A stretch of DNA of 64,000 bases. It comes from Skeletonema tropicum. Taxonomy: Eukaryota > Bacillariophyta > Thalassiosirophyceae > Thalassiosirales > Thalassiosiraceae. The notes under the pieces were generated by a model. That model searched no databases. It saw only the letters and a list, made by a program, of their open reading frames with translations, and was not told the origin of the DNA. Where the stretch lies: assembly GCA_037178625.1 (NCBI GenBank), contig CM074133.1, positions 868,001-932,000 of the forward strand, in the 5' to 3' direction. The position numbers and the translations under genes are program-made. How positions within the stretch are numbered: position 1 is the first letter of the stretch; every line of letters begins with the position of its first letter. Positions 16,687-58,746 of the stretch are shown here, piece by piece.

Positions 16687-17806
16687 TTAGGCGGACTCAG
16701 CAATCTTCTGAGATCTGCGAGTACTCCTCCTCTTGGAGATCAATGAACGACGGGCCTCCTTCTGCTCAGCAAGACGTTGGGCAACAACCTTCTTGTAAGC
16801 AGCGGCATCCTCCTTGTTTCTAAGAACGGACGCCAACTTGGCAGCCTTTCTAGCCCTCTTTCTCTGAAGAGTAAGAGGTGTAACCAAACGTTGGATCTTG
16901 GGTGCCTTACGGACCTCCTTGCCCTTCTTGTTGGTGAAGGTACGGGCGATGACGTATTTGGTAACATCGTCCTCCTTGGACAAGTTGAAAAGCTTACGGA
17001 TCTTCTGAGCACGCTTGGGCCCAAGACGACGGGGGATGGAGTCATCAGTAAGTCCAGCAATTGTGTTATCACCAATCTTGACAATAGCCAAGTTGAGGAC
17101 AGCGATGTCTTGTGAGACGATGCATCCACGGATACTCTTGCGCTTACGCTCACCTGCACGACGCTGTCTGTAACCCTTGTGTCCCTTGTGCATCAAAAGA
17201 CGCACACGGTGGTTGACGAGGACACCCTGACGCATGGGGAATCCCTGCTTATCGTTACCTCCGGTGATGCGCAAGACGTAACCAGCGAATTCATCTCCGA
17301 GGACACCTCCGTCAACCTCTTGGGCCATACGCTTCTCGTAGAAGTTTTGGAGACGCTTTTCGTCATCGATTTCGATAACCTTTTGCAATCCGGTGCTAGG
17401 GCAAGAAATATTGATCTGTAGGTAATGAAAAGTAAGATGGATGTGTTAGAAAGAGTTGCAAAAGCATGTGGATTGAATAGGTGAAGTATTGCACCATCGA
17501 TTTTTCTTTTTGAAATGTGGAAAAAGCTCGGGCGGATGCATGCCGGTAATTGCTGATATGCAACGTTGCAACACTGTGTCACTTGTATTCATGTGCATGT
17601 GATTGTAAGAGCAGTATCATGGTGTTATTTATCACCATGCACTCATCTGCGGGCATGAAAGGCCGGCAATTGATAGCCTCGCAATAATCTTCTACATGTG
17701 TGCACGTGGACTTTTATCATCACCGCTGGCCGCCCAATGCCCAAACCAGAGCTTTTCCGCCTCCCACATCGTCTATTAACATTGCTATTCTCCAACTTGC
17801 CTTCAT
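16687..17806 (-). CDS. RPS6: 40S ribosomal protein S6
   Basis: Small-subunit ribosomal protein eS6. The main exon, 17415-16687, encodes [20 protein letters not shown] through the phosphorylatable tail [16 protein letters not shown], with family motifs [38 protein letters not shown] and [11 protein letters not shown]. The exon has a CAG acceptor and lacks the start. eS6 proteins begin M-K-(L/F/I)-N. The best upstream match is ATGAAG at 17806-17801, followed by GCAAGT: a two-codon exon 1 and a GC-AG intron (17416-17800, 385 bp). This gives 244 residues, close to the human 249. The first exon is inferred; an ATG used with a weak GT donor cannot be excluded. Confidence 0.93.
17416..17800 (-). other. 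Probable GC-AG intron of RPS6
   Basis: The junction ATGAAG|GCAAGT fits the known strong consensus of GC-AG introns (AG|GCAAGT), and the acceptor is TACAG at 17416-17420. It is longer than the other introns in this window. No GT-donor alternative giving an M-K start was found between 17416 and 17810. Confidence 0.6.
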
Positions 17807-18639: not shown

Positions 18640-21600
18640 TTAAACGCCTTGCTCGTCAGCAAGAGCCTTGATAGCATCCACTACCTCAACCATGTCACCA
18701 ATTGTTTTGGCTTCCACTAAATCAGATGCCGTGATATTGAATTGCATCTCTTTGGTCGAAAACTTCTTGTTCAGCAAGTTGACTAGGACGGGGACGCCAA
18801 TTGATGCCAAACCACACTCTCCCAAAGTATATTCCATCAAGGGTTCAATTCCAGTCATGCCTTCAATAAGTTCAGCCAAAAGCGTAGCAGTATCTTCATC
18901 GTTTTTTTCGGCTGGCACAAAATTTTCCTTGACTTCGGATACTGCGGCAGAAGCAGAAGAAAAGAAACAAGATCAGTTTTCTTAATTCAGTAGGGCAGGC
19001 AGTGATCAAGTCTTTTCCTCAATCAAATACTTACATTTCTCGCTCACAAATGGCTCAATGGTATTCATTAACCTGGAGAAACCAACAATAAGTCCAACAA
19101 CATAAAAGTATTCATACCACTCCACTGGGCATGGAGCGGGGCTAAACCAGTAGAAATCCTTCCGGAATCTCCACCAGTTCCACATTGTACCATTTCGAGT
19201 GGCAGCATAATACCATTGACCAACCATTTGATGAAACAAGAAACAGTTGTACGCATTGGGTGCAAGATCCTTTGACAAATAGGACCATCGCAAGATTTTA
19301 GCGGTAAACCCTTGTCCGGTAGAAAGAGCATAGATCCACAGTGTAGTCAAAGGAGCGAAGATGCGGCCACCAATATTGTCCCAGAGACGATTGGAAGTCG
19401 CCGAATCCGTTTTCTGGTTAGCAGAATCTGGTCGCATGTACCTTTCACCATCATCAGGCTGAACTCCTTGCATGACGATTGCAACGCTCATACCAAACAT
19501 GACCAAGGTAATCAGATCCGCGACCCAGCCCCACTTGCGAGCGCTGTGTTTCTCGGCTGGACGGTGAGCATCATACAAAAATGCGGTGGCAATACCAATG
19601 ACAAAGTAGATCTGCCAGATGGGACCAAACAAATAAAAGGACAGAACTCCAACATTTTGACCAACTCCAACAGTTGGATTGCCCTCTTCGTCATAATTTC
19701 CGTAATCTTCCATATCCTTCCAAATGAACCATGCACCCGTGCAGATAGCAGCATTAGCTAGTAGCAATCCGATGAGCCATATCAACAACAACTTCACTTT
19801 TTTTCGAGTCTTGTGATAAAAATAATTGTATGTGGCCGGAAAACAGGCGAGGCAGCAATAGTACATAGAACTGAACCAAAGGTAGTAACCCAGCCACCAG
19901 GTAATCGGCCAGAATGGCGTGATTGCAAGTCCGAAGATGTAAGTGAAAACAGTGAGGAACAAACTTCCCCAATAACTATTGGGCGTAGCTGGTGTACCCT
20001 CACAGAAGAGTGGAGCTAGAGAGCCATCTTCAAGGTACAGATCGTCAGGCTGAGCTTCCCAATGGAAGTCGGAGCGGAACGTTCTTGGTCGGCAGACGAT
20101 GATAAGATTCAATAGGCCAAAAGAAAGAGCCACTGCGTACATTGGATACATATTGCCTATTCTTGCCATGAAGTAAGAGAATTTCTTCTGGATGGCGGGA
20201 TTCATTGGTGATGCCATAGAGTAACCACCCAAAGTGAAGAAGACGTGAACGTGCCAGGGCCAGCCTCTTAAGTTATTGAATGGTCCCCAACTCTCATTCG
20301 AGCCAATATGCATGAACATGACGTAGCAGGCGAGAACAAAACGGAAAGCACCAATTACTTCCCAATCCACCTGCGCCTTTGTCGATGGCTTCGAGACATC
20401 AATATCTTCTTCCTTTGGATCCAATCCCAAATGCGTGGATAAATTCACCCTGATGTACTTCTTGGTTTTTGTCTTGGGAAGCTGGTCGTCGCTAACAATA
20501 ATCCACTTTGTAGGCCATTTGATCTGCATTGGTACGACCAATGAACAAAAGGCGTACGAATTAAACAAAGAATGAAAGGTAAGAGATAAGCCGAGTTCGA
20601 ATCTGCCCAACACAAATGGTGAAAACGTTCACTTACTGGTGCTACCTGAGCTGCCTTCAAACATTCTCTCATCTCTGCAGACACTAATTTCAAGGTATTT
20701 TTAGCATCAATGCCCTGTTCTTGTGTTTCTTGTGTATGCTGAGTACTCGAAAGATATTGCTTTTGATGCAGCGAAGTATTAAGAGAATTCTGACCGTTCG
20801 CTTCTGTTCGATTATTAAACGAAGGTGAAAGCACCAATGCACAACCAACTTCTTCTCCGTACAACTTCGATGGGACGGCGAAACAGATAGGTGTTTCAAT
20901 CCACGGGTGAGTCTTAAGTGGCTCTTCGATTTCAAAAGGAGACACTTGCTCGCCACCTTTCTTAATGAGCTCCTTGGCACGACCCTTCAAACTGAGATAA
21001 CCATCACTATCGATCACACCAACATCTCCGGTGAGAAAATAAGGCAGCTGTTTTTTCCTAGGGTTAGGGTTCTCGGCGACGGACAAGTAAAAGAAAGACT
21101 TCTTGTCAGCATCCGGATTGTCTAAGTAATTCTTCAAGACAGTTGGACCAGAAATAGCAACTTCTCCCTCTACGCCTGGCGGTTGTGGCCTTAAGTTGCG
21201 ACGGGATATAATTGCAGTCGAAGCTGCGACTGGGACACCTACAGAACCTGGCTTGGAGAGAAAAGAGTCATCTCTCCAGCGACATGGGGGCTGCGATATT
21301 GGCATCTGTTCACTCATAGAATATGTAGCATAGACTGGCACGCCACCAAACGTAGCAGCAAGGGCGTCGCCATCTGCTCTTAACAATGCTGCAGCTCCGG
21401 ATCGAATCATCCGAAGAGAGTGGCCCCTGGCCCAGACCCCGTTGGGACCAATCCCCATTTTTTTGTATTTTTCATCGCTTGATGCGACGTTCTTTATGAA
21501 GCTCACGGTTGAATTATGAATTGTAGGCACCGAGCTGTACCAAGTTGGTTGAGGGTTAGACATTCCCAATGCATCCACCATTCGAGAAGGATCAAAAGGA

Positions 21601-23466
21601 TCGGGATCGCATGACACTGCTCCTCCAGAGGTCATGGTACAAAGGATCGAAGCACTAATGCCACCAATGTGGAACAAAGGCATGATAGAATAGCAAACGT
21701 CTGACGGAGTAAGTTGCTGGGGAAACGAAAACGATGAGTCGGAGTTGCGGCATTACAAGCGACAATTTTCAGTAATCACGTACCATGGCATGTGCAATAA
21801 TTGCCCCATTTGTAATGAGATCACACTGAGTTAATGGTACTCCTTTAGGCCGCGCAGTTGTTCCAGAAGTGCGAAGCAGTAGACACGTTCCATCCTCCGC
21901 GTTAATTAGGGGTCGTTTCCCACTATAATCAGTAGCAGTAGTTACACCAGCACTATAGGCAAACAAACCAGGCTTTTCTCTACCTTTAGCAGATGCTCTA
22001 TGAATCTTGGCATTGCCGGTCGCAGCATGCTTTTGAAACGCTGCTTCCACATCAGGACACTCGACTCCATCAAAAAGGATGAGGTGCTTAGCATCGAATT
22101 GATCTAAGGTATCAAGGGCATCAGGCTCGGCAGTACCAGGGGCCAATGGAGCCGCAGCTGTTTGAGCCCCAATCGATAAGAAAGCGACTGCTGCCATAGC
22201 ACTACCGCCTGGGGGAGCAGCATAGGCGACAACTTCTCCTGGCTTGACGCCCAATGCGCGAAGGTCTCCCGCTCCTCCGTCGATAAAGCTCAATAAATCA
22301 CCATACGTAGTAGTTTCTCTGACAGTATTTCGAGAAGTGTACAGGAATGGCCTCTCTGCAGGCTGTGCAGCCAACGCACCCCGTATCGTAGCTCCGCCCC
22401 TAAATATCCCTTCAGGGAGCAACTCGTGTTTCAGCTTTACGAGTGCAACCTGGGATTCCCTCAGAAGGTGTATCGAGGATACCTTATTCATTTGAATGTA
22501 TTCTAAATCCGGTTCCCTTCTCCGTCTTCGGGGCCTTCCAAGTGTCCTTGCAAAATTCCTCAGTGCTGCACACAAATCTTTGTCCAGGCTGACGTCACGA
22601 GGCACTCCGTGCCCACCAGGCATATATCTGATTTCACGAGCTGCATAAATCAAAGCATTCTTTTCACTTTTTACTTTGAAGTCATCATCCATTCCAATGA
22701 TATGGAACGATGGAAGAGGAATTGAGCCAGCCCCGATTTGAGAACAACCTAATACCTCACGGAGAGGAGAAATATCTGGTGCAGCACATGCGAGAATGGC
22801 AAATTTGAATAGAGGCTGTTGTAGGTTGATGGGTTGGCGTGCATGGTTCGACCGAAGTGAGGAGAGAGGCGTCTTAGCCAATATATTTTGAGAGAATTGA
22901 CCGTGCGAGTCAGCATTCCGGTTCCGGAACTGGAGGAGATTTCTAAGTTCTGTATCTCTGGAGAGATTATTGACGAGAGATGCAACTAATGCACCAGTTG
23001 AAAACCCATAAATGCCATCAAATGGACCGTGCGTGCGGCAATAATTAACAACATCCATCACAGCTCCGATGACGGATGCAGAGTCGTCTTTGTCAAACCA
23101 TGAATAGAATGGGCCTTGGATTAGTCCGTCAATACTACTATGAGCTTCTTCGACTTCAACTCCTCCCTGAAGATAATCGATATCGTAGTCATCATCTGTG
23201 ATTTGCAAGTTCGATAGCTGCAACTTTGTCACATTATTATTACTCTGAGCACCATGTAGGGCCAGTATTCGGGGTCGATAATTAAATTCGACAATAGGAC
23301 GCGAACGCAAAACCACTGCTTCTTCATCATCTATTGAAGTCTCTTCATGTTGTTTCTGTAAATATGATACTGGCAGCGATACTGTTTTTCTCCTTCTCAG
23401 AGTTGGCATATTCAGTTTGTTACCCTGAGCTTCTATGTCAACATACATGGGCAAAGCATCACCCAT
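18640..23466 (-). CDS. FSH hydrolase-adenylation-acyltransferase 3-carrier multidomain enzyme
   Basis: One 1517-residue protein from four exons: 23466-21784, 21716-20637, 20523-19035 and 18941-18640. Introns are 67, 113 and 93 bp with GTACGT, GTAAGT and GTAAGT donors; all phases agree. Domain 1 (about 60-330) is an FSH1/OVCA2-like serine hydrolase with LALHG, nucleophile GFSTG, Asp in IIGMDDDF and His in GGHGVP. Domain 2 (about 350-960) is an AMP-binding synthetase with TSGTTARPKG, MPLFHIGG, TYSMSEQ, LTGDVGVID, GRAKELIKKGGEQVSP and LPKTKTKKYIR. Domain 3 (about 980-1410) is a multi-pass acyltransferase-3 domain starting FRFVLACYVMFMHIG, with the family's TM1 His. Domain 4 (about 1420-1517) is a phosphopantetheine carrier with the attachment Ser in GLASIG. 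The parts suggest that an acid is adenylated, loaded on the carrier and moved to a membrane or lumenal acceptor, with the hydrolase editing or transferring. Substrate and acceptor are unknown. I know of no named protein with this order. Confidence 0.85.
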
Positions 23467-26280
23467 AGCAACGGGGTGTTATAAGTGCGCGGCGGAGATG
23501 TCGGTGCCGCTGAGGAGTTAGTGAACAAATTCAATTGTCAGGCTGTAGCAGGAATAAGAAGCCCGACCCGAGACACAGAACTGCTCGGGATACAAGGGAA
23601 GACAGCCACATCATAATATTTAGGCCTTTTTTCCTATGTAGTATTGACATCATTCTTTCTCCAATCACCTGCAGTTGTGTTTTGTCAGTAGGAGTATTGT
23701 ACGATGTTTGCACGATGGAACATAGTAACAAGCACACAGACACATGAAAAGTGAATTACTTTTATGTGCAGAATTCTTGCGAGCTACACACACATGCACA
23801 ACGGCGAACACACACACAAACTTGCACATACGCAACGCGGATGGATGGTGTCTGTGGAAGTAATATTAATTCCATCGTTGAGGCTAGTCGCAATAGACAC
23901 TTAGAAGAAGGAGGTGAAGACAGTACAGTACAGCCGATAATGCACTCAAAAAGTGAAGAATACGTGTGTCTTCGTGGCAAAGCGAAGTGTCAGGTATTGC
24001 CCTGCGATCCCCAAAAGCAAACTTCCAAAGATTCATAGAGAGAATCGGAGAATCGGCATTGGATACGCATTTTCTTTTGCCCGATTTGCAGACATGCAGA
24101 ATAATCATCTCCCATCTCCACCCCGCCCTCAGCCACCCGCCCTCTTCTAGCCTCTTCTCCACCCATCTCGAATCTGACTAATCACGAATCTTCAATCGCT
24201 TTGATGGAGCTTGGGACATTTCGGGTTCTTGGCCTGCGCGCCTTTTCCAGGGGTTACTCCAGCGGGGAAACGGGGCGTCCCGTCCATCATTTTTCTAGCC
24301 GTTTCACACACTTTTCAAATTCAGATCATTTTGCACACCAGAACCATGGCGGAGGCGGCTGCTATGGTATGGAGCGGAACGTCGGCCGGCATCACCAACA
24401 ACCGACTGCGATGTCCTCAGTGGACCGATATGACGTCATGATGTGAAGGAATTTCTGTCAAAGTGCCCAGAGCCTTTATTCTATCTGGGTGTCGCCTACC
24501 AAAAGTGACCGTTATTTTGATACCAATGCAACAACTGCACCGCCCACTCATGAACAGAGGACCTTTTGGCCATATTCACCCTTCCATTACTATCCTATCC
24601 GGTAGTGGTGATGATGTAACAATAATTGACGAGTCGGTTTCGTTTTCATCGGTGAGGAACCGCCGATATGAGACCCCTTGATTGTCCAACGACGCCGCGT
24701 GTCATATCGCACAAATACAGCACAACGTACAAGAGGAGAGGTGTGGGGATACTACAACAAATAGAGCAAGATCATAATCACAATACGACAATAGAATGGG
24801 TTTGATGGAAATAGCGGCGTCTCGTCTCCGTGCGGTGTGGTCCAGGTGGCATATGGCCTGTTGTGGTAGCTTGTATCAGTACACAACACTTTGAGGGAGG
24901 GCATTGTGTACTTTGAGCGACGGAGGGGATAATGATCAGGACTGCGGGAACATGCAACAATATGATAAGCTTTTGAAGTGCATTATACTTTAATGGACTA
25001 TCATTGATGTTGCCTTTTGCTGGTACTCCTTTCATCATCACTCGCAATACCACGGCTTCAGTGGACACAAAAGCTTACAATCAATCTGAGATATCGGGTG
25101 ACTTACTATTCAGCTTCAGCAGCAGCGGCAACATGAGTGTTGATAACTGCGCCATATCTTCGAAAGGAGTCGGTGATTCCCATTGTAAATCATCGAGTCA
25201 AAGAGGCGGCATTCGGCATTCTGTACTAGATGAATCCACCACGGAACGAATCTGCTGTTGAAATAAGAGATGAATAGGGTGTCAAAAAACAATACACGCA
25301 ACCTCTGGTAGAAGTTATCAATTTGGAACTAGAGTTGACAATCGTTTGTTGAGAAGTACTGCACTGGATGGAGGGTGCGGCGACATTGTCTAAGGAGGTT
25401 TGTCAACTAAAGAAAAGATAGTCTTTGGACGCATCTGGGGTGTAACATGTGTCTTCCTGTCGACCTATTCAACAATCAACATAATAATAACAATGTAGAA
25501 CAACATTCATATAATAAACCTCATTTTAATGGTTGTATTATCATTGTAGACGCAACCTTCACACAAGCACTTACCTTGTCTGCTAGATTACATGTTGATA
25601 ATGATATGGTACAGGCTGCAGTGGATAATAAAGAGCACAGCGGCTTTGATCTTGCGTTATCACATAGACACTAGACACTATATTAATAGTTTAGGCAGGA
25701 GAGTGCAATATTATGTGTAATTGCATAGTTTAATACCATCAATTGAGGTGTGATGCCCACACATGAATCTGTTCACAATCATAAAAATATTACACCCTCA
25801 AGAGACATGGCCTATTAGCAACGCCGAGGCGGATAACATGGCGTTATGACCACCCATATCGGTCATCTATATCAATATAAAGCAGGGAGTGCCGCGGGGG
25901 GCCTTATGAATCGATTATTGTATTTCCCCTACGACAATATTTGCAGCTTCCACCAAAATAGACCAAAAATCGATGCCTGAGATATAGCCGCAAATACGTC
26001 TGTGACTAAGAGTTTTGGCAAACTTCCGAAAACACCATTGGATTCTGCATCAAAATATAGTCTAGAAAATGTATCACCGATGAATCATATCCAGAAACAA
26101 TTGTGATAATATGGACTCCTGCTCAATTGATGTCGAGGCAGAGGGCTTTGTGAGATGTGTTTTTTCAAAAAAAAAAAAGCGGGAGGAGCGCGCAGGCCAA
26201 TAGATCATAAGTCCGAAGCTGCTCCATTAGAAGTCATCAATTTCAAGTGATATTATTGTACTGTTTGTGTTCATAGATTT
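23467..26280. other. Gene-poor 2.8 kb intergenic region
   Basis: Between the multidomain enzyme gene (minus) and SF3B2 (plus). Many short ORFs occur on both strands, but none has a domain, signal peptide or convincing composition. There are CA-rich stretches near 23790-23830 and an A12 run near 26167. It includes both divergent promoters. I see no RNA gene or transposon end. Confidence 0.5.
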
Positions 26281-44048: not shown

Positions 44049-44288
44049 GTTTCACAAAAGTTGCAGATTTCACACACTTTTCGCACACTTCTCGCACACT
44101 TCTCGCACACTTTTCACGGTTTCGCACACTTCTCGCACACTTTTCACGGTTTCGCACACTTCTCGCACACTTTTCACGGGTGAAAAGTGTGCGAGAAGTG
44201 TACGAAAAGTGTGTGAAGGGTGAAAAGTGTGCGAGAAGTGTGCGAAAAGTGTGTGAAACTTGTGTGAAATCTGCAACTTTTGTGAAAC
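44049..44288. mobile_element. Foldback element with tandem 30 bp units
   Basis: A 240 bp near-perfect inverted repeat. The outer arms are GTTTCACAAAAGTTGCAGAT at 44049 and its complement ending at 44288. Inside are about three 30 bp units built from CGCACACTTCTCGCACAC and TTTTCACGG on the left. The centre is near 44178-44180 and inverted units lie on the right. It would form a long hairpin. No obvious target-site duplication or ORF is seen. A left-truncated copy begins at 47300. Confidence 0.8.
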
Positions 44289-44680
44289 TTTCTTCACATG
44301 AAAGGTATTCACGGGCAACCGATAAAGCGGGCATGTGGGCGTGACCACATGATGGCCTGGTTTTCCAGAAGAATTTGCTAGGGTATTTTTAGCTCATTTT
44401 ACCTCATTATCCAGAGTTGGGGGCCCCGCGTTAAAAAAACTGATAACAATCCCTCAAAAAGCGATTCGATTTTGTTCTCATCCTCTTCACGCCTCACGCT
44501 TCATTTCTTCTTTGGTGCGTGTTGGCTGTTGGCTGTTGCGGTGGGGGTTGCTGGCTCATAAAGTTGACAGAGTATTGAACTAAACACAACATCATCTGTC
44601 TTGCTTCTCTCACTACGCCATACATAATTGGTGGTGCTGGACAGCCTCTCACGGTCTCCTCACAACATATCTCCAAGCCG
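44289..44680. promoter_or_regulatory. Upstream region of the beta-lactamase-like gene, copy 1
   Basis: About 390 bp between the foldback and the ORF, duplicated at 47505-47896, so each gene copy keeps the same promoter region. The sequence holds no supported ORF. Confidence 0.4.
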
Positions 44681-45949
44681 ATGCCACTGCTACACAAAAT
44701 AATGACCACCAAATCAGCTACCTCCATAACAGCCTTGCTGCTACTGCAATTGGTAACATCTACTCTCGGTACCAACACAACGCGCATCATCGATCTATCG
44801 CAAGATATCCCACTAGACATAGGAGCCATTATATCCTCACCCGGTGCCAGAGCAATTCAAGAAGCTGCATCGCAAGATCCACTCATCCGAGCTGCCATCG
44901 TACTCGAGCATGGCGACATAGTTTCTTCCTACCATCGTGATGATGTCGATCCCAACGGGACTACGTTTGAAGTTTATAGTACAACGAAAAGCTGGGTGTC
45001 TCTAATGATCGGCATGTTGGTAGAGGATGGCTTACTCTCTCTTGATGAAACGCTTGGTGATATCTTTGCAAATGATGATGCATGGGCAGATGTGACAGAT
45101 GGGAGCACCGACTTCCGAAAGAATGCGACCATTGAAGAGATGCTCACCATGACATCAGGCCTTATCTCATCTACTAAAGACCCATTTGGGTTTGCAAACT
45201 GTTTCGGTGGCTGTACATTGGCAGACTCTCTATCCGTTCCGGATATTGGAGTCAAGGGTGAATTTTCCTATCTGGCAGCGAGCCAGATTCCGAGTTATAT
45301 CATTCAAGAGCGCAGTGGTATGACTCCAAGACAATATCTGGAAAAGCATGTGATGGGTAAACTAGGTATTAGTGGAGATGAATACGATTGGCAGAAAAAT
45401 GATGATGGAATCGAGGCGGGGTATCATGGTTTATTGCTAACTCCGATGCAAATGGCTAAATTTGGACAATTGTATTTGCAAGGGGGTCGAACAAATCCAT
45501 CCAATGATGAACGTGTGATCTCACAGGAATGGATAGATGCCTCATTTACGCAGTATGCTATGGAAGATGCATTTGGATTGCCATATGGCTATTTGTTTTG
45601 GGGCATGGGATCAGCGTATTGCGCTATTGGCATGGGCGCACAAGTCATATGTGTAGACCGTGATCTTGGTCGAGTGGCGATTCAACAGAGGGACTTGGAT
45701 TGGGGATCAATCGATGACATGCAAGGATTGGAACACTTGGTTGTTACATCTGTTGCCTTGAATGGGACATTGTCGTTTCGTGCTTCTGATGATGGAATAA
45801 TGGGAAGTAGTCCAACGCAACCTAAAGATGATGAAAAGGAATCTGCATCCCTGTCAGAGAGGGATACAAGTGACGATGTACAACTCGTCGCAACATCTGT
45901 GTGGTTGATTTTGACTTTGAGTTTATCTGTGCTAGTTGTAGTGTGCTGA
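44681..45949 (+). CDS. Secreted serine beta-lactamase-fold hydrolase, copy 1
   Basis: A 422-residue protein of the class C beta-lactamase/penicillin-binding-protein-like family, whose eukaryotic members are esterases or peptidases. It has an N-terminal signal peptide (ITALLLLQLVTSTLGT). The SxxK catalytic motif is in YSTTKSW near residue 99. The second catalytic Tyr is probably in FSYLAAS, and the usual YxN Asn is replaced. Family features include LTMTSGL, YLEKHVMGKLGI and a GYGYLFW-like strand. A Ser/Asp-rich stalk and a terminal hydrophobic helix (LVATSVWLILTLSLSVLVVV) follow, suggesting a GPI or membrane anchor on the cell surface. The start could be the second Met (MTTKSATS). The protein is identical in the second copy. 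Confidence 0.87.
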   Translation: MPLLHKIMTTKSATSITALLLLQLVTSTLGTNTTRIIDLSQDIPLDIGAIISSPGARAIQEAASQDPLIRAAIVLEHGDIVSSYHRDDVDPNGTTFEVYSTTKSWVSLMIGMLVEDGLLSLDETLGDIFANDDAWADVTDGSTDFRKNATIEEMLTMTSGLISSTKDPFGFANCFGGCTLADSLSVPDIGVKGEFSYLAASQIPSYIIQERSGMTPRQYLEKHVMGKLGISGDEYDWQKNDDGIEAGYHGLLLTPMQMAKFGQLYLQGGRTNPSNDERVISQEWIDASFTQYAMEDAFGLPYGYLFWGMGSAYCAIGMGAQVICVDRDLGRVAIQQRDLDWGSIDDMQGLEHLVVTSVALNGTLSFRASDDGIMGSSPTQPKDDEKESASLSERDTSDDVQLVATSVWLILTLSLSVLVVVC

Positions 45950-46930: not shown

Positions 46931-47560
46931 ATGATGAACTCTAACTTTAGCAACATTGATGTTGTCAACGGGCGCGGACAAGGCGTCCAGCGCCTACCAG
47001 GCAACGTGATGTTTAGAAAACTTGTGTCTGCCCACAAGCGGACTTATGCACAAGCGCCCAAATCGCATAAAGTGAAGGTTGCACAAGGCATAGTTATCGC
47101 GCTTCGTCGGTTCGGTGCCAAATTCTTAGAGTTCGATACCAAGAAGAGACGCTATTACGACATAGGGGACGAAAAGGCCGCGATTAAGACGGGCCAAGCC
47201 TTAAGGGAAGGTCAGGTCAAAATTAAACGAGAGCTAGCCGCTGAGGCTGTAAAAGGGATCTCAAGCTCAGATCATTCTTCTTTCATCACTTCAAGTGACC
47301 ACACTTCTCGCACACTTCTCGCACACTTTTCACGGTTTCGCACACTTCTCGCACACTTTTCACGGTTTCGCACACTTCTCGCACACTTTTCACGGGTGAA
47401 AAGTGTGCGAGAAGTGTACGAAAAGTGTGTGAAGGGTGAAAAGTGTGCGAGAAGTGTGCGAAAAGTGTGTGAAACTTGTGTGAAATCTGCAACTTTTGTG
47501 AAACTTTCTTCACATGAAAGGTATTCACGGGCAACCGATAAAGCGGGCATGTGGGCGTGA
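46931..47560 (+). pseudogene. DUF6824-family gene, copy A, truncated and fused to foldback
   Basis: The first 120 or so codons are a DUF6824-type protein (NIDVVNGRGQGVQRLPGN, VMFRKLVSAHKRTY, FGAKFLEFDTKKRRYYDIG, AAIKTGQALREGQ). At 47299 the duplication junction replaces the rest with foldback sequence, which by chance stays open and encodes TLLAHFSRFR-type repeats to a stop at 47558-47560. The result is a 209-codon chimeric ORF. The original C-terminus is lost. Confidence 0.8.
47300..47504. mobile_element. Foldback element, left-truncated copy
   Basis: Copy of 44084-44288 lacking the outer left arm; the duplication breakpoint cut it. Confidence 0.8.
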
Positions 47561-47896
47561 CCACATGATGGCCTGGTTTTCCAGAAGAATTTGCTAGGGT
47601 ATTTTTAGCTCATTTTACCTCATTATCCAGAGTTGGGGGCCCCGCGTTAAAAAAACTGATAACAATCCCTCAAAAAGCGATTCGATTTTGTTCTCATCCT
47701 CTTCACGCCTCACGCTTCATTTCTTCTTTGGTGCGTGTTGGCTGTTGGCTGTTGCGGTGGGGGTTGCTGGCTCATAAAGTTGACAGAGTATTGAACTAAA
47801 CACAACATCATCTGTCTTGCTTCTCTCACTACGCCATACATAATTGGTGGTGCTGGACAGCCTCTCACGGTCTCCTCACAACATATCTCCAAGCCG

Positions 47897-49165
47897 ATGC
47901 CACTGCTACACAAAATAATGACCACCAAATCAGCTACCTCCATAACAGCCTTGCTGCTACTGCAATTGGTAACATCTACTCTCGGTACCAACACAACGCG
48001 CATCATCGATCTATCGCAAGATATCCCACTAGACATAGGAGCCATTATATCCTCACCCGGTGCCAGAGCAATTCAAGAAGCTGCATCGCAAGATCCACTC
48101 ATCCGAGCTGCCATCGTACTCGAGCATGGCGACATAGTTTCTTCCTACCATCGTGATGATGTCGATCCCAACGGGACTACGTTTGAAGTTTATAGTACAA
48201 CGAAAAGCTGGGTGTCTCTAATGATCGGCATGTTGGTAGAGGATGGCTTACTCTCTCTTGATGAAACGCTTGGTGATATCTTTGCAAATGATGATGCATG
48301 GGCAGATGTGACAGATGGGAGCACCGACTTCCGAAAGAATGCGACCATTGAAGAGATGCTCACCATGACATCAGGCCTTATCTCATCTACTAAAGACCCA
48401 TTTGGGTTTGCAAACTGTTTCGGTGGCTGTACATTGGCAGACTCTCTATCCGTTCCGGATATTGGAGTCAAGGGTGAATTTTCCTATCTGGCAGCGAGCC
48501 AGATTCCGAGTTATATCATTCAAGAGCGCAGTGGTATGACTCCAAGACAATATCTGGAAAAGCATGTGATGGGTAAACTAGGTATTAGTGGAGATGAATA
48601 CGATTGGCAGAAAAATGATGATGGAATCGAGGCGGGGTATCATGGTTTATTGCTAACTCCGATGCAAATGGCTAAATTTGGACAATTGTATTTGCAAGGG
48701 GGTCGAACAAATCCATCCAATGATGAACGTGTGATCTCACAGGAATGGATAGATGCCTCATTTACGCAGTATGCTATGGAAGATGCATTTGGATTGCCAT
48801 ATGGCTATTTGTTTTGGGGCATGGGATCAGCGTATTGCGCTATTGGCATGGGCGCACAAGTCATATGTGTAGACCGTGATCTTGGTCGAGTGGCGATTCA
48901 ACAGAGGGACTTGGATTGGGGATCAATCGATGACATGCAAGGATTGGAACACTTGGTTGTTACATCTGTTGCCTTGAATGGGACATTGTCGTTTCGTGCT
49001 TCTGATGATGGAATAATGGGAAGTAGTCCAACGCAACCTAAAGATGATGAAAAGGAATCTGCATCCCTGTCAGAGAGGGATACAAGTGACGATGTACAAC
49101 TCGTCGCAACATCTGTGTGGTTGATTTTGACTTTGAGTTTATCTGTGCTAGTTGTAGTGTGCTGA
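47897..49165 (+). CDS. Secreted serine beta-lactamase-fold hydrolase, copy 2
   Basis: Protein identical over 422 residues to the copy at 44681-45949, with the same signal peptide, STTK catalytic motif and C-terminal hydrophobic anchor, and the same upstream region. Both copies therefore appear functional and recently duplicated, doubling dosage of this putative cell-surface hydrolase. An allelic copy placed in tandem by the assembler is possible, but the clean junction and the SINE in only one unit favour a real duplication. Confidence 0.87.
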   Translation: MPLLHKIMTTKSATSITALLLLQLVTSTLGTNTTRIIDLSQDIPLDIGAIISSPGARAIQEAASQDPLIRAAIVLEHGDIVSSYHRDDVDPNGTTFEVYSTTKSWVSLMIGMLVEDGLLSLDETLGDIFANDDAWADVTDGSTDFRKNATIEEMLTMTSGLISSTKDPFGFANCFGGCTLADSLSVPDIGVKGEFSYLAASQIPSYIIQERSGMTPRQYLEKHVMGKLGISGDEYDWQKNDDGIEAGYHGLLLTPMQMAKFGQLYLQGGRTNPSNDERVISQEWIDASFTQYAMEDAFGLPYGYLFWGMGSAYCAIGMGAQVICVDRDLGRVAIQQRDLDWGSIDDMQGLEHLVVTSVALNGTLSFRASDDGIMGSSPTQPKDDEKESASLSERDTSDDVQLVATSVWLILTLSLSVLVVVC

Positions 49166-50575: not shown

Positions 50576-51485
50576 ATGTTTACTGTAATACGTAGGTGGT
50601 CATATAATTGTAAAAACACATTATTGCTAAATAATCCTCTTTATTAAAAGTCGAATGGTACCTACAGATATATCACCTCTGTTCTACTGCGAAGTTGTAC
50701 CAGACCTTGTCGTCCTTACTCTCCCATACTTCCTTCAGCACTGATATGACGAGGAACAGCTTTTGTGTCACTGCTGATGTAGAAGGCTTATCCTTCTCGG
50801 CTGTTGTTCAGCCGGCTGATTGACGACGAAGATATTCAAAGCAACAAAAGCAAAGGAAGCAAATGAATGATAACACTGTGTGCGTTACACCTGTAAAAAA
50901 ATACTCAGAGAGATGATGAAAAAATGAGAATCCGATGCCAGCTAGCTACCAGTTCTCCGCAGCATAGGAAAAGACTACTTATTTAGCCTTTCTCACCTCT
51001 ATTTTTAAGAAAATTAAAGGAAGTGAACACAACTCGAAATGTACTCCCTTAGGTAATAATTATTGCTAAATATAGGCTAGTATCGAGGGACAAATCGATA
51101 GTGTCAGCTATTTCGCTCATTCCTGTTTGAGGTGGGGGTAAGTCAAAGTTGGGGGTACAGTTCGAGGGGTTGAATTCAGTTCCACGTTCCACGTGGCCCA
51201 AAAGCAAGATCAAATATTTTCTCTTTTCTTTGAACCACGCTCCAGAAAAAGCAAGATCTAAGAATCGCCAAGATACCTGAAGCAAAGGTGAATATAGGTT
51301 GGTCCTTTGATCTTGCCCTGCGAAGACAGTCATGCCCCAAGATACTCTCACAGCAAGACTCGGAACATCTTCGAAGTGCCTCGAAAGATGTAATCTGGAT
51401 AATTAGAACACAAACCTGTCAGGTTTGCCCTTCAGGTATGCCCTCACAAAACTTTGTGGTGTGCAGAGAGTCCAAGTCTATCACT
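50576..51485. other. Intergenic region
   Basis: About 900 bp between copies B and C. It holds the 3' UTR of B and the promoter of C. Its last 300 bp resemble the upstream region of copies A and B. No other gene is seen. Confidence 0.5.
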
Positions 51486-52250
51486 ATGGACTCTGACTTC
51501 AGCAACATTGATGTTGTCAACGGGCGCGGACAAGGCGTCCAGCGCCTACCAGGCAACGTGATGTTTAGAAAACTTGTGTCTGCCCACAAGCGGACTTATG
51601 CACAAGTGCCCAAATCACATAAAGTGAAGGTTGCACAAGGCATAGTTATCGCGCTTCGTCGGTTCGGTGCCAAATTCTTAGAGTTCGATACCAAGAAGAA
51701 GCGCTATTACGACATAGGGGACGAAAAGGCCGCGATCAAAACGGGCCAAGCCTTAAGGGAAGGTCAGGTCAAAATTAAACGAGAGCTAGCCGCTGAGGCT
51801 GTAAAGGGGATCTCAAGCTCAGATCATTCTTCTTTCGTCACTTCAAGTAACCAATCCTTGGAAGAATCTTACGCAAATCTATCTATTCAAATCTTACAAT
51901 CATTGATGGTTGAGGATGAAAAGATGGTTGTGGAAGATAAGTCTTCTTCTCAAAGTCCAGCGTCAACTAAGCAATCATCGAATAGTGCTTCGAAGGAAGA
52001 GTCAAAATCTAGTGTTAGTAACCCACTTAGCAATCCGTCAGGTAGTGGTACATCACTACGTGCGATCTTTGATGAGATTGCATCAGAGAGTGAATCTTCT
52101 GTCCAATTACTGAGTACTGAGGAGATTAAAGATGTCCATGAAGAAATGGGGTTCGAGTTTGACCTCAGTGAAATGGAAAGGGATCCTTCGGATATACTTG
52201 CCTCAATGAGTCTCGGTGATGACGAAAATGTCATGGCCAAGATTGCATAA
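51486..52250 (+). CDS. DUF6824-family protein, copy C (intact)
   Basis: I chose the ATG at 51486 (MDSDFSNIDVVNGRG) because it aligns with the starts of copies A and B; the ORF opens upstream at 51288. The product is 254 residues. The domain (about 5-100) has GRGQGVQRLPGN, MFRKLVSAHKRTYAQVP, VIALRRFGAKFLEFD, YYDIGDEKAAIKTGQALREG, the pattern of the family I know as DUF6824, which is expanded in diatoms. The C-terminal 150 residues are acidic and Ser-rich, ending in a short conserved helix (EEMGFEFDLSEM). Function is unknown; the basic domain plus acidic tail would suit a nuclear factor, but this is inference. Confidence 0.82.
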   Translation: MDSDFSNIDVVNGRGQGVQRLPGNVMFRKLVSAHKRTYAQVPKSHKVKVAQGIVIALRRFGAKFLEFDTKKKRYYDIGDEKAAIKTGQALREGQVKIKRELAAEAVKGISSSDHSSFVTSSNQSLEESYANLSIQILQSLMVEDEKMVVEDKSSSQSPASTKQSSNSASKEESKSSVSNPLSNPSGSGTSLRAIFDEIASESESSVQLLSTEEIKDVHEEMGFEFDLSEMERDPSDILASMSLGDDENVMAKIA

Positions 52251-57069: not shown

Positions 57070-58095
57070 ATGGCGTTGAAGCCAGGTGATAACGATGTGT
57101 TGTCCGGCCGTGGAGCCTGGTTTAATCAACATCCTGGCAATGAGCAATTTCGAAGGATGCTCAATGAGCAAAAGGTAAGTTAGCCTGAACTTCTTCGTCC
57201 TAGTCTTCCAGTCAATTGGAGTCATCTATTGATAACAATTTCCCACACTATCATACTGTATCGTATCTCAAAGGATGTCTACATGGCTAGCACGAAGAAG
57301 CAAAAGATGGACATCTCCAAAGCCATCGTTGAAGTAATCTATTCGAAAGATCCACCAGGTAGATTTCTCAAACAATGTCCGAAAAGTTGTCAATGGAACG
57401 AGCTGTCGAAGAGAGAAGCAGCCGATAGAGTAGCCCAAGCGATGGCATATGCCGTTAGAGGTAAAGATATATCGAAGCGTAAGAAAGAAGAACTGCGGCG
57501 TTCCCGTCAAATATCACAGCACAAGTCAAAGAATAATGATGCTGATGATGCTGATGTGGCTTCGTCGCAGCATGCTGATGATCGACCGACTACTCAACAT
57601 CAATTGCACAGCTCGAGTAATCAGTTGGAAGATAATGCTTCTTCATCGTCGTCTGTGACAAATCAAAAACTCACTGCCCGTAATCCAGTAGCAGGAGACA
57701 CCAATAATACAGCTGTGGCAGAGTCGGCTACAATGGAGATTGATGGTACTGATTCGGCGGCGGATAGAATGCATCTTGTGCCAGGAAACTCCACATTTCG
57801 TCAGCAACTGCAAAGTCCTCCGCAAATGGATCAATCCAGTGATGCCGTCACCCTGCCAACATCCTCCATCGATCAAAGAGTGACTCAAAATGGATTGGTC
57901 CGAGTTCTAGCGCAGGCAGTGCAGCAGCAGCGACGCCATCATGACCATACTCAGCAGCAGCAGCAGCAACAGCTCCAGCTTCTCCAATCTAATTTGGCCC
58001 CGATCCCCAATCCATTGATACAGTTACTTCACACACAAACTCCGCTTCAGCCTACTTCACTTGAAGGATTGACTCATCAACTCTTGGCTCAGGCA

Positions 58096-58130
<35 letters not shown>

Positions 58131-58746
58131 TTACCTGCAGCAGTTCCTTCTCCTTCAACATTTGCTGCATGCACAAAATATGCTCTCAACTGATTCGCTA
58201 CTAACGACTCTACCCCCATCAGCTCCATCCTCGGCTTCTCAGGGGGTGTTGCCCACAAATAATGGCATGATTCTGAATGGGGCATCTTCTTCAAACTACT
58301 CATTGCCTCTCCAATCTGATCAGGCCGCTAATATGAATATCTTGCAAAACCTGCAACAACAATCAAATCCATCATTAAATCCAAATGCGCTTTTGCTTAG
58401 CAACTTATTGAGTAATTTACAGCACCAACCAAATAATAACGTGGGGATAATCAGCGCACTCCAGGGAGCACAACAATTGGATCAATTGCAGAGCAGTCTC
58501 AGGATACATCATTCGCAGCAGTTGCTGTCTTCACCTCCAGCTGCTTCCAATCAGTCCTCCGGGCAGCTGTTGGATCATCCTCATCAGGCATGGCAGACAG
58601 CTCTGCTGCTCCAGATCCAAAACTTGCAGGATGACCCCCCTTCGATAGTTGCGCAGCCATCGGCTAATGCAGCTTCTGCATCGACTAGGCAGGATGAGAG
58701 TGGCGTAGATGGAGGGCAGAGCATGCCGGAAGAGGAACCGACATGA
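57070..58746 (+). CDS. DUF6824-family Gln-rich protein 1
   Basis: Exon 1 (57070-57174) encodes MALKPGDNDVLSGRG and FNQHPGNEQFRRMLNEQK. The intron is 57175-57273 (99 bp, GTAAGT to AAAG). Exon 2 (57274-58746) continues DVYMASTKKQKMDISKAIVE, IYSKDPPGRFLKQC, WNELSKREAADRVAQAM, AVRGKDISKRKKEELRRSR. The domain of about 115 residues matches DUF6824 (DVLSGRG, HPGN, FR, GRFL, W, A..RVAQAM). The remaining 400 residues are Gln-, Asn-, Ser- and Leu-rich, with polyglutamine tracts, like an activation domain. Total 525 residues. A nuclear, possibly DNA-binding role is inferred from the basic domain and Gln-rich tail. Confidence 0.85.

Follow-up and report, generated by a model that had tools for sequence, protein, structure and literature searches.

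A diatom protein that fuses a serine hydrolase, an adenylate-forming ligase, an AT3 membrane acyltransferase and a carrier: a candidate self-loading acyltransferase shared with bacteria

A 64,000-nucleotide stretch of the genome of the diatom Skeletonema tropicum (assembly GCA_037178625.1, contig CM074133.1, positions 868,001 to 932,000; this whole stretch is called the window, and positions are counted from its first letter unless another contig is named) encodes on its minus strand a single polypeptide in which an FSH1-type serine hydrolase, an adenylate-forming (ANL) domain, an AT3/TmAT membrane acyltransferase and a C-terminal phosphopantetheine carrier follow one another (Table 1). This fused architecture is common to diatoms, other algal-type sequences and bacteria, and its AT3 domain lacks an arginine that is usual in other AT3 domains. 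We propose that the protein may be a self-loading transmembrane acyltransferase, whose own carrier would feed the AT3 domain instead of acyl-coenzyme A (acyl-CoA), a reading to which we give an even chance.

As an earlier reading of the letters had predicted (the original prediction), the four exons splice exactly in phase into 1517 codons without a stop; the introns are 67, 113 and 93 nt long, each GT..AG. The splice model is supported because bacterial homologues with a single open frame align unbroken over all junctions, as for P0046, which aligns in one stretch to residues 66 to 1514 across all three, and because purifying selection acts on the AT3 exon, with dN/dS ratios (nonsynonymous to synonymous substitutions) of 0.212, 0.209 and 0.128 against three paralogues in the same genome (495, 490 and 494 codons). 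At the level of sequence, the predicted gene is confirmed as real, intact and encoding one polypeptide.

A Pfam search of the spliced protein recovered FSH1 and AMP-binding, whereas neither AT3 nor the carrier was matched at E <= 0.1. In an alignment of 75 full-length rows, to which residue counts out of 75 refer, the catalytic residues of all four domains are near-invariant, and the claim of one polypeptide with these four domains is supported. The hydrolase keeps its triad (Ser 75/75, Asp 75/75, His 74/75), and its sole match among solved structures is 1ycd (E 9.5e-4), which we take to be yeast FSH1. LovG and OVCA2 are FSH1-type serine hydrolases; the domain has PF03959 and the Ser-Asp-His triad in common with this group, but is part of a multidomain membrane protein. 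The comparison of the hydrolase with DltD, made in the original prediction, has to be replaced by one with the FSH type.

In the ANL domain Glu, Asp and the A10 Lys are each present in all 75 rows. Among solved structures, oxalate-CoA ligases come nearest to it (5ie0 by sequence, E 3.4e-56), and for the relative P0019 the best match of this domain by fold is the oxalyl-CoA synthetase 5ie3. Oxalate, a candidate substrate suggested by the best match, was rejected: the places of Ser289 and His319 of AtAAE3, both of which we take to be oxalate contacts, are occupied by Ala and Pro in this protein, as counted by hand in the alignment, a difference from the oxalyl-CoA synthetases AtAAE3 and Pcs60. 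The motifs RSGAAAL and SMSEQMPI are family-wide within the bacterial alignment. An amino acid such as D-Ala, one of the options in the original prediction, was rejected as well. Adenylation domains that activate amino acids hold the amino group with an Asp at the A4 site, which is His in 74/75 rows and Asn in the remaining one; against TIGR01733 (amino-acid adenylation) the domain scores 106.9 bits, far under the cut-off of 317.4. The likely substrate, judged from these residues, is a carboxylic acid other than oxalate and not an amino acid. In the carrier the attachment Ser of the GLxS motif is found in 75/75 rows, and the model of P0019 has four helices at the C-terminal end, the position of the carrier.

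The AT3 assignment is supported by the predicted fold of the window's own exon 3, which is the 10-helix TmAT fold. PF01757 exceeds its cut-off in the relatives P0028, P0046, P0060 and P0090; it stays under the cut-off in P0115 and P0119 and is unmatched in the window protein and in P0116, P0023, P0097 and P0100. The R-X10-H motif of the first transmembrane helix (TMH1) is retained (Arg 72/75, with Gln in 3; His 75/75), as are the TMH2 Phe (74), the first Arg of the TMH3 RxxR (72, with Lys in 3) and the TMH9 Tyr, assigned by its motif (68, with Phe in 5). In HGSNAT this Tyr is described as part of the surroundings of the beta-mercaptoethylamine (PMC12423673). The Asp of the TMH1 DxxR is absent by eye; it is given as dispensable in OacB and essential in HGSNAT (PMC12423673).

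A further difference lies at the donor site. In simulations of OafB (PMC9833829), R14, R74, R338 and K279 lie around the CoA 3'-phosphate, and R74, the second Arg of the RxxR, is hydrogen-bonded to it. A carrier arm consists of phosphopantetheine without the 3'-phospho-AMP, so that an AT3 domain fed by a carrier is predicted to lose the 3'-phosphate contact and to keep the pantetheine side. From 121 family rows (120 relatives and the window), 11 without a usable R-X10-H and 5 under 400 residues were removed, and 7 of the resulting 105 are gapped at the TMH3 site, including P0046, which has Ala there in an independent alignment. R or K occupies the second-Arg site in 0/98 aligned family rows (A 30, G 20, N 13, S 13, T 7, V 7, Q 3, P 3, H 1, L 1), as opposed to 25 of 27 control AT3 domains (R 23, K 2, H 1, T 1). 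The controls were 30 loci from 40 genomes (27 with AT3), of which L059 and L066 (short matches) and L054 (internal stop) were dropped; they were the best scorers against the AT3 Pfam profile, and the comparison is biased to the canonical motif to that extent. The independent alignment likewise has neither R nor K at the site in 47/47 rows. By contrast, the first Arg is R or K in 98/98 aligned rows (95 R, 3 K), and in the control-family alignment the TMH1 His is retained in 104/104 family rows. The loss of the second Arg is consistent with, but not proof of, a carrier-fed AT3 domain.

A protein search returned 189 homologues at E <= 1e-5. Among the best 120 of the 189, the named organisms are the diatoms Skeletonema, Corethron, Cyclotella cryptica (CCRYP tag) and Rhizosolenia, the haptophyte Calcidiscus, and bacteria such as Pseudomonas, Acinetobacter, Duganella, Burkholderia, Methylobacterium, Serratia and Microbulbifer, among others. 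The named bacterial proteins each align over a single stretch, which in most cases runs from near residue 64 to 1505-1515 of the window protein, with 38-44% identity. A genome scan yielded 17 bacterial loci, with L034 and L038 being fragments of one Zoogloea metagenome-assembled genome; Aeromonas popoffii has the gene broken into two reading frames. The idea that bacteria use separate proteins for these steps does not hold at these loci, nor is a diatom-specific role in the frustule supported. A search with 13 divergent members found 167 proteins at E <= 1e-20; among the best 120 of these, what lies beyond the family itself is mostly nonribosomal peptide synthetase (NRPS) and ligase proteins without AT3 annotation, and the hydrolase-ligase-AT3-carrier order therefore marks a separate family. 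The bacterial gene is rare, being found in 1/398 sampled genomes of the phylum, namely the seed itself (E <= 1e-100; two candidates scored per genome among the matches listed). Carriage on plasmids was considered and rejected: plasmid records match P0046 through its ligase part, among the matches listed, and 0 of the 2517 matching records carry 80% of P0046 in one place. Among open-access articles in PMC, judged from listings and the openings of abstracts, no description of the fused architecture was found, in agreement with the original impression that it is new. Some members carry additional parts. In P0097 (Calcidiscus) and P0100 roughly the first 745-780 residues form a large N-terminal extension; it contains a hydrophobic segment ahead of FSH, is without a Pfam match at E <= 0.001 and by eye resembles an outward-facing module. 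EF-hands are annotated in P0115 and P0117, in P0115 ahead of FSH, a hint of calcium control.

To describe the bacterial neighborhood, the open reading frames of the 17 loci were clustered and one representative per conserved cluster was annotated. An AraC-type regulator is nearby in 14/17 loci, and PEBP-like (YbhB/YbcL) frames occur in 13/17, in 11 of them directly upstream on the same strand (L022-L030, L033 and L037); in both loci inspected for it (L022 and L023) the upstream PEBP-like frame has an apparent signal peptide. An ElbB-like protein is found near the gene in seven loci, a porin in three, and an Sfp/EntD-type phosphopantetheinyl transferase in four, all Acinetobacter. The transferase would fit a carrier in need of its phosphopantetheine arm, and a secreted PEBP-like protein would fit a product or acceptor outside the cytosol.

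In the proposed mechanism, the cytosolic ANL domain would activate a carboxylic acid, not an amino acid and probably not oxalate, at the expense of ATP and place it on the phosphopantetheine arm of its own carrier. From the cytosolic side the loaded arm would reach into the opening of the AT3 bundle, taking the role of acyl-CoA, and the acyl group would then be handed by AT3 to an acceptor beyond the membrane, in the periplasm of bacteria or, in algae, in the lumen of the endoplasmic reticulum, Golgi or vesicles, or at the cell surface. The FSH hydrolase may serve as a tethered thioesterase and clear or edit the carrier, or it may free the acid beforehand. The shared architecture and the invariance of the carrier Ser, the ANL Lys and the AT3 His speak in favor of such a sequence of steps. 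Activation, carrier loading and membrane transfer are also the logic of the Dlt system, and this part of the original prediction appears to be the best reading. In that system DltA, DltC and DltD are separate proteins and DltB is an MBOAT; here one polypeptide would suffice, with AT3/TmAT instead of DltB, FSH instead of DltD and no amino-acid-binding Asp.

Several points weigh against the self-loading mechanism. By models and by structures alike, CoA ligases are the closest match of the ANL domain. PF00550 was found in two of six relatives scanned, with P0060 at 31.3 bits and P0119 at 18.4 (cut-off 20.8), and is unmatched in the window protein and the other four relatives. The model of P0019 (1088 residues) has a predicted TM-score (pTM) of 0.57, so that a docking of the carrier on AT3 cannot be claimed from it, and a simple hydropathy scan of exon 3, which bears on the proposed topology, gives nine overlapping segments. 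The loss of the second Arg is a single ancestral change that was inherited, and the TMH1 Arg, likewise a 3'-phosphate contact, is retained. Furthermore, PMC12423673 calls the first RxxR Arg alone general in the superfamily, so that CoA may not require the second one, and a 2022 review holds that AT3 donors are acyl-CoA and not acyl carrier protein (ACP) (PMC9558356).

Among the alternatives, an NRPS-like small-molecule synthetase fares best, although we consider it unlikely: ANL would load the carrier, FSH would release the product, and AT3 would acylate or export it, giving a soluble, secreted metabolite rather than a modified glycan or lipid. The FSH family includes polyketide-releasing enzymes, with LovG as a thioesterase-type releaser, which speaks for such an enzyme together with the small bacterial cluster and the patchy distribution described above. 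However, neither the protein nor its conserved neighbors contain a condensation, ketosynthase or other chain-building domain, and a single module would yield an acyl-transfer product only. Ranking after it and likewise unlikely is a CoA-using enzyme, in which the ANL domain is an acyl-CoA ligase that feeds AT3 directly and the carrier is an accessory. The kinship of the ANL domain with oxalyl-CoA synthetases and the donor given in the review (PMC9558356) would suit it, but an accessory carrier leaves the invariant carrier Ser unexplained, the second RxxR Arg is missing in 98/98 aligned rows, and a phosphopantetheinyl transferase lies near the Acinetobacter genes. A Dlt-like transfer of D-alanine or another amino acid from the carrier by AT3 is very improbable; the chemical steps have the same order and TIGR01733 does match, though far under its cut-off, whereas the A4 site is His instead of the amino-binding Asp and the models and structures that match best belong to enzymes for plain carboxylic acids. 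Finally, next to no credence can be given to separate genes having been joined by the original prediction, because the bacterial homologues continue through in a single frame and the Corethron relative P0007 (1665 aa), which bears the name of MMETSP, a transcriptome project, has the same domains.

The direction of descent was approached with a tree of the ANL domain alone, rooted on five NRPS/ligase-type domains with a long root branch. The nine bacterial rows form one clade (100/100), which stands beside the diatoms (99/96) within other algal-type rows, and a grouping of all non-bacterial family rows was rejected in the approximately unbiased (AU) test (p 0.00093). Since many non-bacterial rows are metagenome proteins, the tree was repeated with the eight eukaryote-sourced rows only, including the window and P0026, an MMETSP transcript. 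Bacteria were nested again (93/88 against Calcidiscus, 100/99 against Seminavis; AU p 0.025). The tested group had been picked after earlier trees were seen (FastTree with a midpoint root, and a quick tree). A transfer of the gene from algae to bacteria is likely but not settled, owing to the long root branch, the single domain and the choice of the group after the first tree. More tentatively still, and at somewhat less than even chance, the family could be a separate AT3 branch that does without free acyl-CoA, its donor being its own ANL-loaded carrier, and that arose in algae, passed to bacteria and there became the core of a small regulated cluster.

Two further known systems invite comparison. 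From the AT3/TmAT superfamily (OafB, OatA, HGSNAT, GWT1) the protein differs in the absence of the second RxxR Arg and, by eye, of the TMH1 DxxR Asp, and in having its own ANL and carrier domains fused to it. The Aas-type acyl-[ACP]-phospholipid O-acyltransferase (NF006386) likewise combines acid activation and acyl transfer in one protein, but Aas has a PlsC-type acyltransferase and a separate ACP where AT3 and a built-in carrier are found here; the ANL part scores 92.3 bits against NF006386, far under the cut-off of 1221.

Table 1. The fused gene and its parts in the window (window coordinates; all on the minus strand).
Feature	Position	Strand	Basis
Whole gene, four exons, 1517 aa	18640..23466	-	Spliced frame; collinear with bacterial single-frame homologues
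Exon 1, residues 1-561	21784..23466	-	Spliced frame
Exon 2, residues 562-921	20637..21716	-	Spliced frame
Exon 3, residues 922-1417 plus one base	19035..20523	-	Spliced frame
Exon 4, including stop codon	18640..18941	-	Spliced frame; stop TAA at 18642-18640
FSH1 serine hydrolase, residues 64-291; Ser156, Asp261, His286	22594..23277	-	PF03959, E 2.9e-22; residue conservation
ANL adenylate-forming domain, residues 367-945, including C-terminal lid; catalytic Lys943; spans introns 1 and 2	20452..22368	-	PF00501, E 3.3e-46
AT3/TmAT membrane acyltransferase, residues 974-1417; Arg982, His993 (R-X10-H); Asn1045 at second Arg of RxxR	19036..20367	-	
Carrier domain, about residues 1420-1517; phosphopantetheine Ser1464 at 18802-18804	18640..18936	-	Ser in 75/75 rows; PF00550 over cut-off in P0060
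Vestige, C-terminal end of isochorismatase-like domain	23413..23478	-	tblastn; in-frame TAA directly upstream; complete in close diatom relatives

At its 5' side the frame is cut relative to its relatives. The stretch from 23478 to 23413 is a match to the last residues of an isochorismatase-like domain (HPVAMGDALPMYVDI), and the remainder of that domain, including an upstream exon, was not found anywhere in the window (tblastn, E <= 10). PF00857 is present in the precomputed annotation of 10 of the 120 listed relatives (P0001-P0008, P0010 and P0011), all among the eleven best, and in P0001 and P0004 it precedes FSH1; that of P0004 is similar to amidohydrolases, RutB and biuret hydrolase among them. 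Within the genome of S. tropicum, the paralogues L019 and L020 on contig C19, which are nearly identical and lie in tandem about 22 kb apart, retain a PF00857-type domain, in which by eye Ser replaces the Cys of SNVCVEE and Gln replaces the Lys of P0001 and P0004, presumably the catalytic residues. Within the stretch fetched, a fourth copy on contig C10 has only the domain tail, and a whole-genome search with PF00857 gave no match on C10. With the window gene and the C10 copy keeping only the tail, the C19 copies altered and the dN/dS of the AT3 exon low, this genome is in the course of losing the isochorismatase-like domain, with the remainder of the protein under constraint. A region of C19 at 1425300-1426061 (minus strand) weakly matches the FSH and carrier parts, has two TAG stops and possibly represents a decayed extra copy.

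Elsewhere in the window, a ribosomal protein S6e frame (PF01092) lies at 16687-17445 on the minus strand, about 1.2 kb past the 3' end of the gene. Two plus-strand open frames of equal length (456 aa), at 44579-45949 and 47795-49165, are 3216 bases apart and accompanied by identical repeats at the same 3216-base spacing; the first matches the beta-lactamase fold (PF00144, E 2.6e-16), and the pair is likely a recent tandem duplication. Beside both duplicates, at 44068-44269 and 47300-47485, are arrays of 30- and 40-base units that are largely reverse-complementary to each other. DUF6824 (PF20710) is found in two more plus-strand frames, at 51234-52250 and 57184-58746.

The enzyme family is real, intact and unusual, is not restricted to diatoms, and represents a kind of AT3 with a testable donor prediction. 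How AT3 enzymes take up the acyl group and move it across the membrane is an open question, and the review cited above gives free acyl-CoA as their donor (PMC9558356). A natural fusion with its own carrier and without the Arg at the CoA 3'-phosphate lets the model of the donor site be tested directly, and could be reconstituted as a single chain. Should the bacterial clade keep its nested place in the tree, a large multidomain enzyme would have moved from algae to bacteria, against the usual direction.

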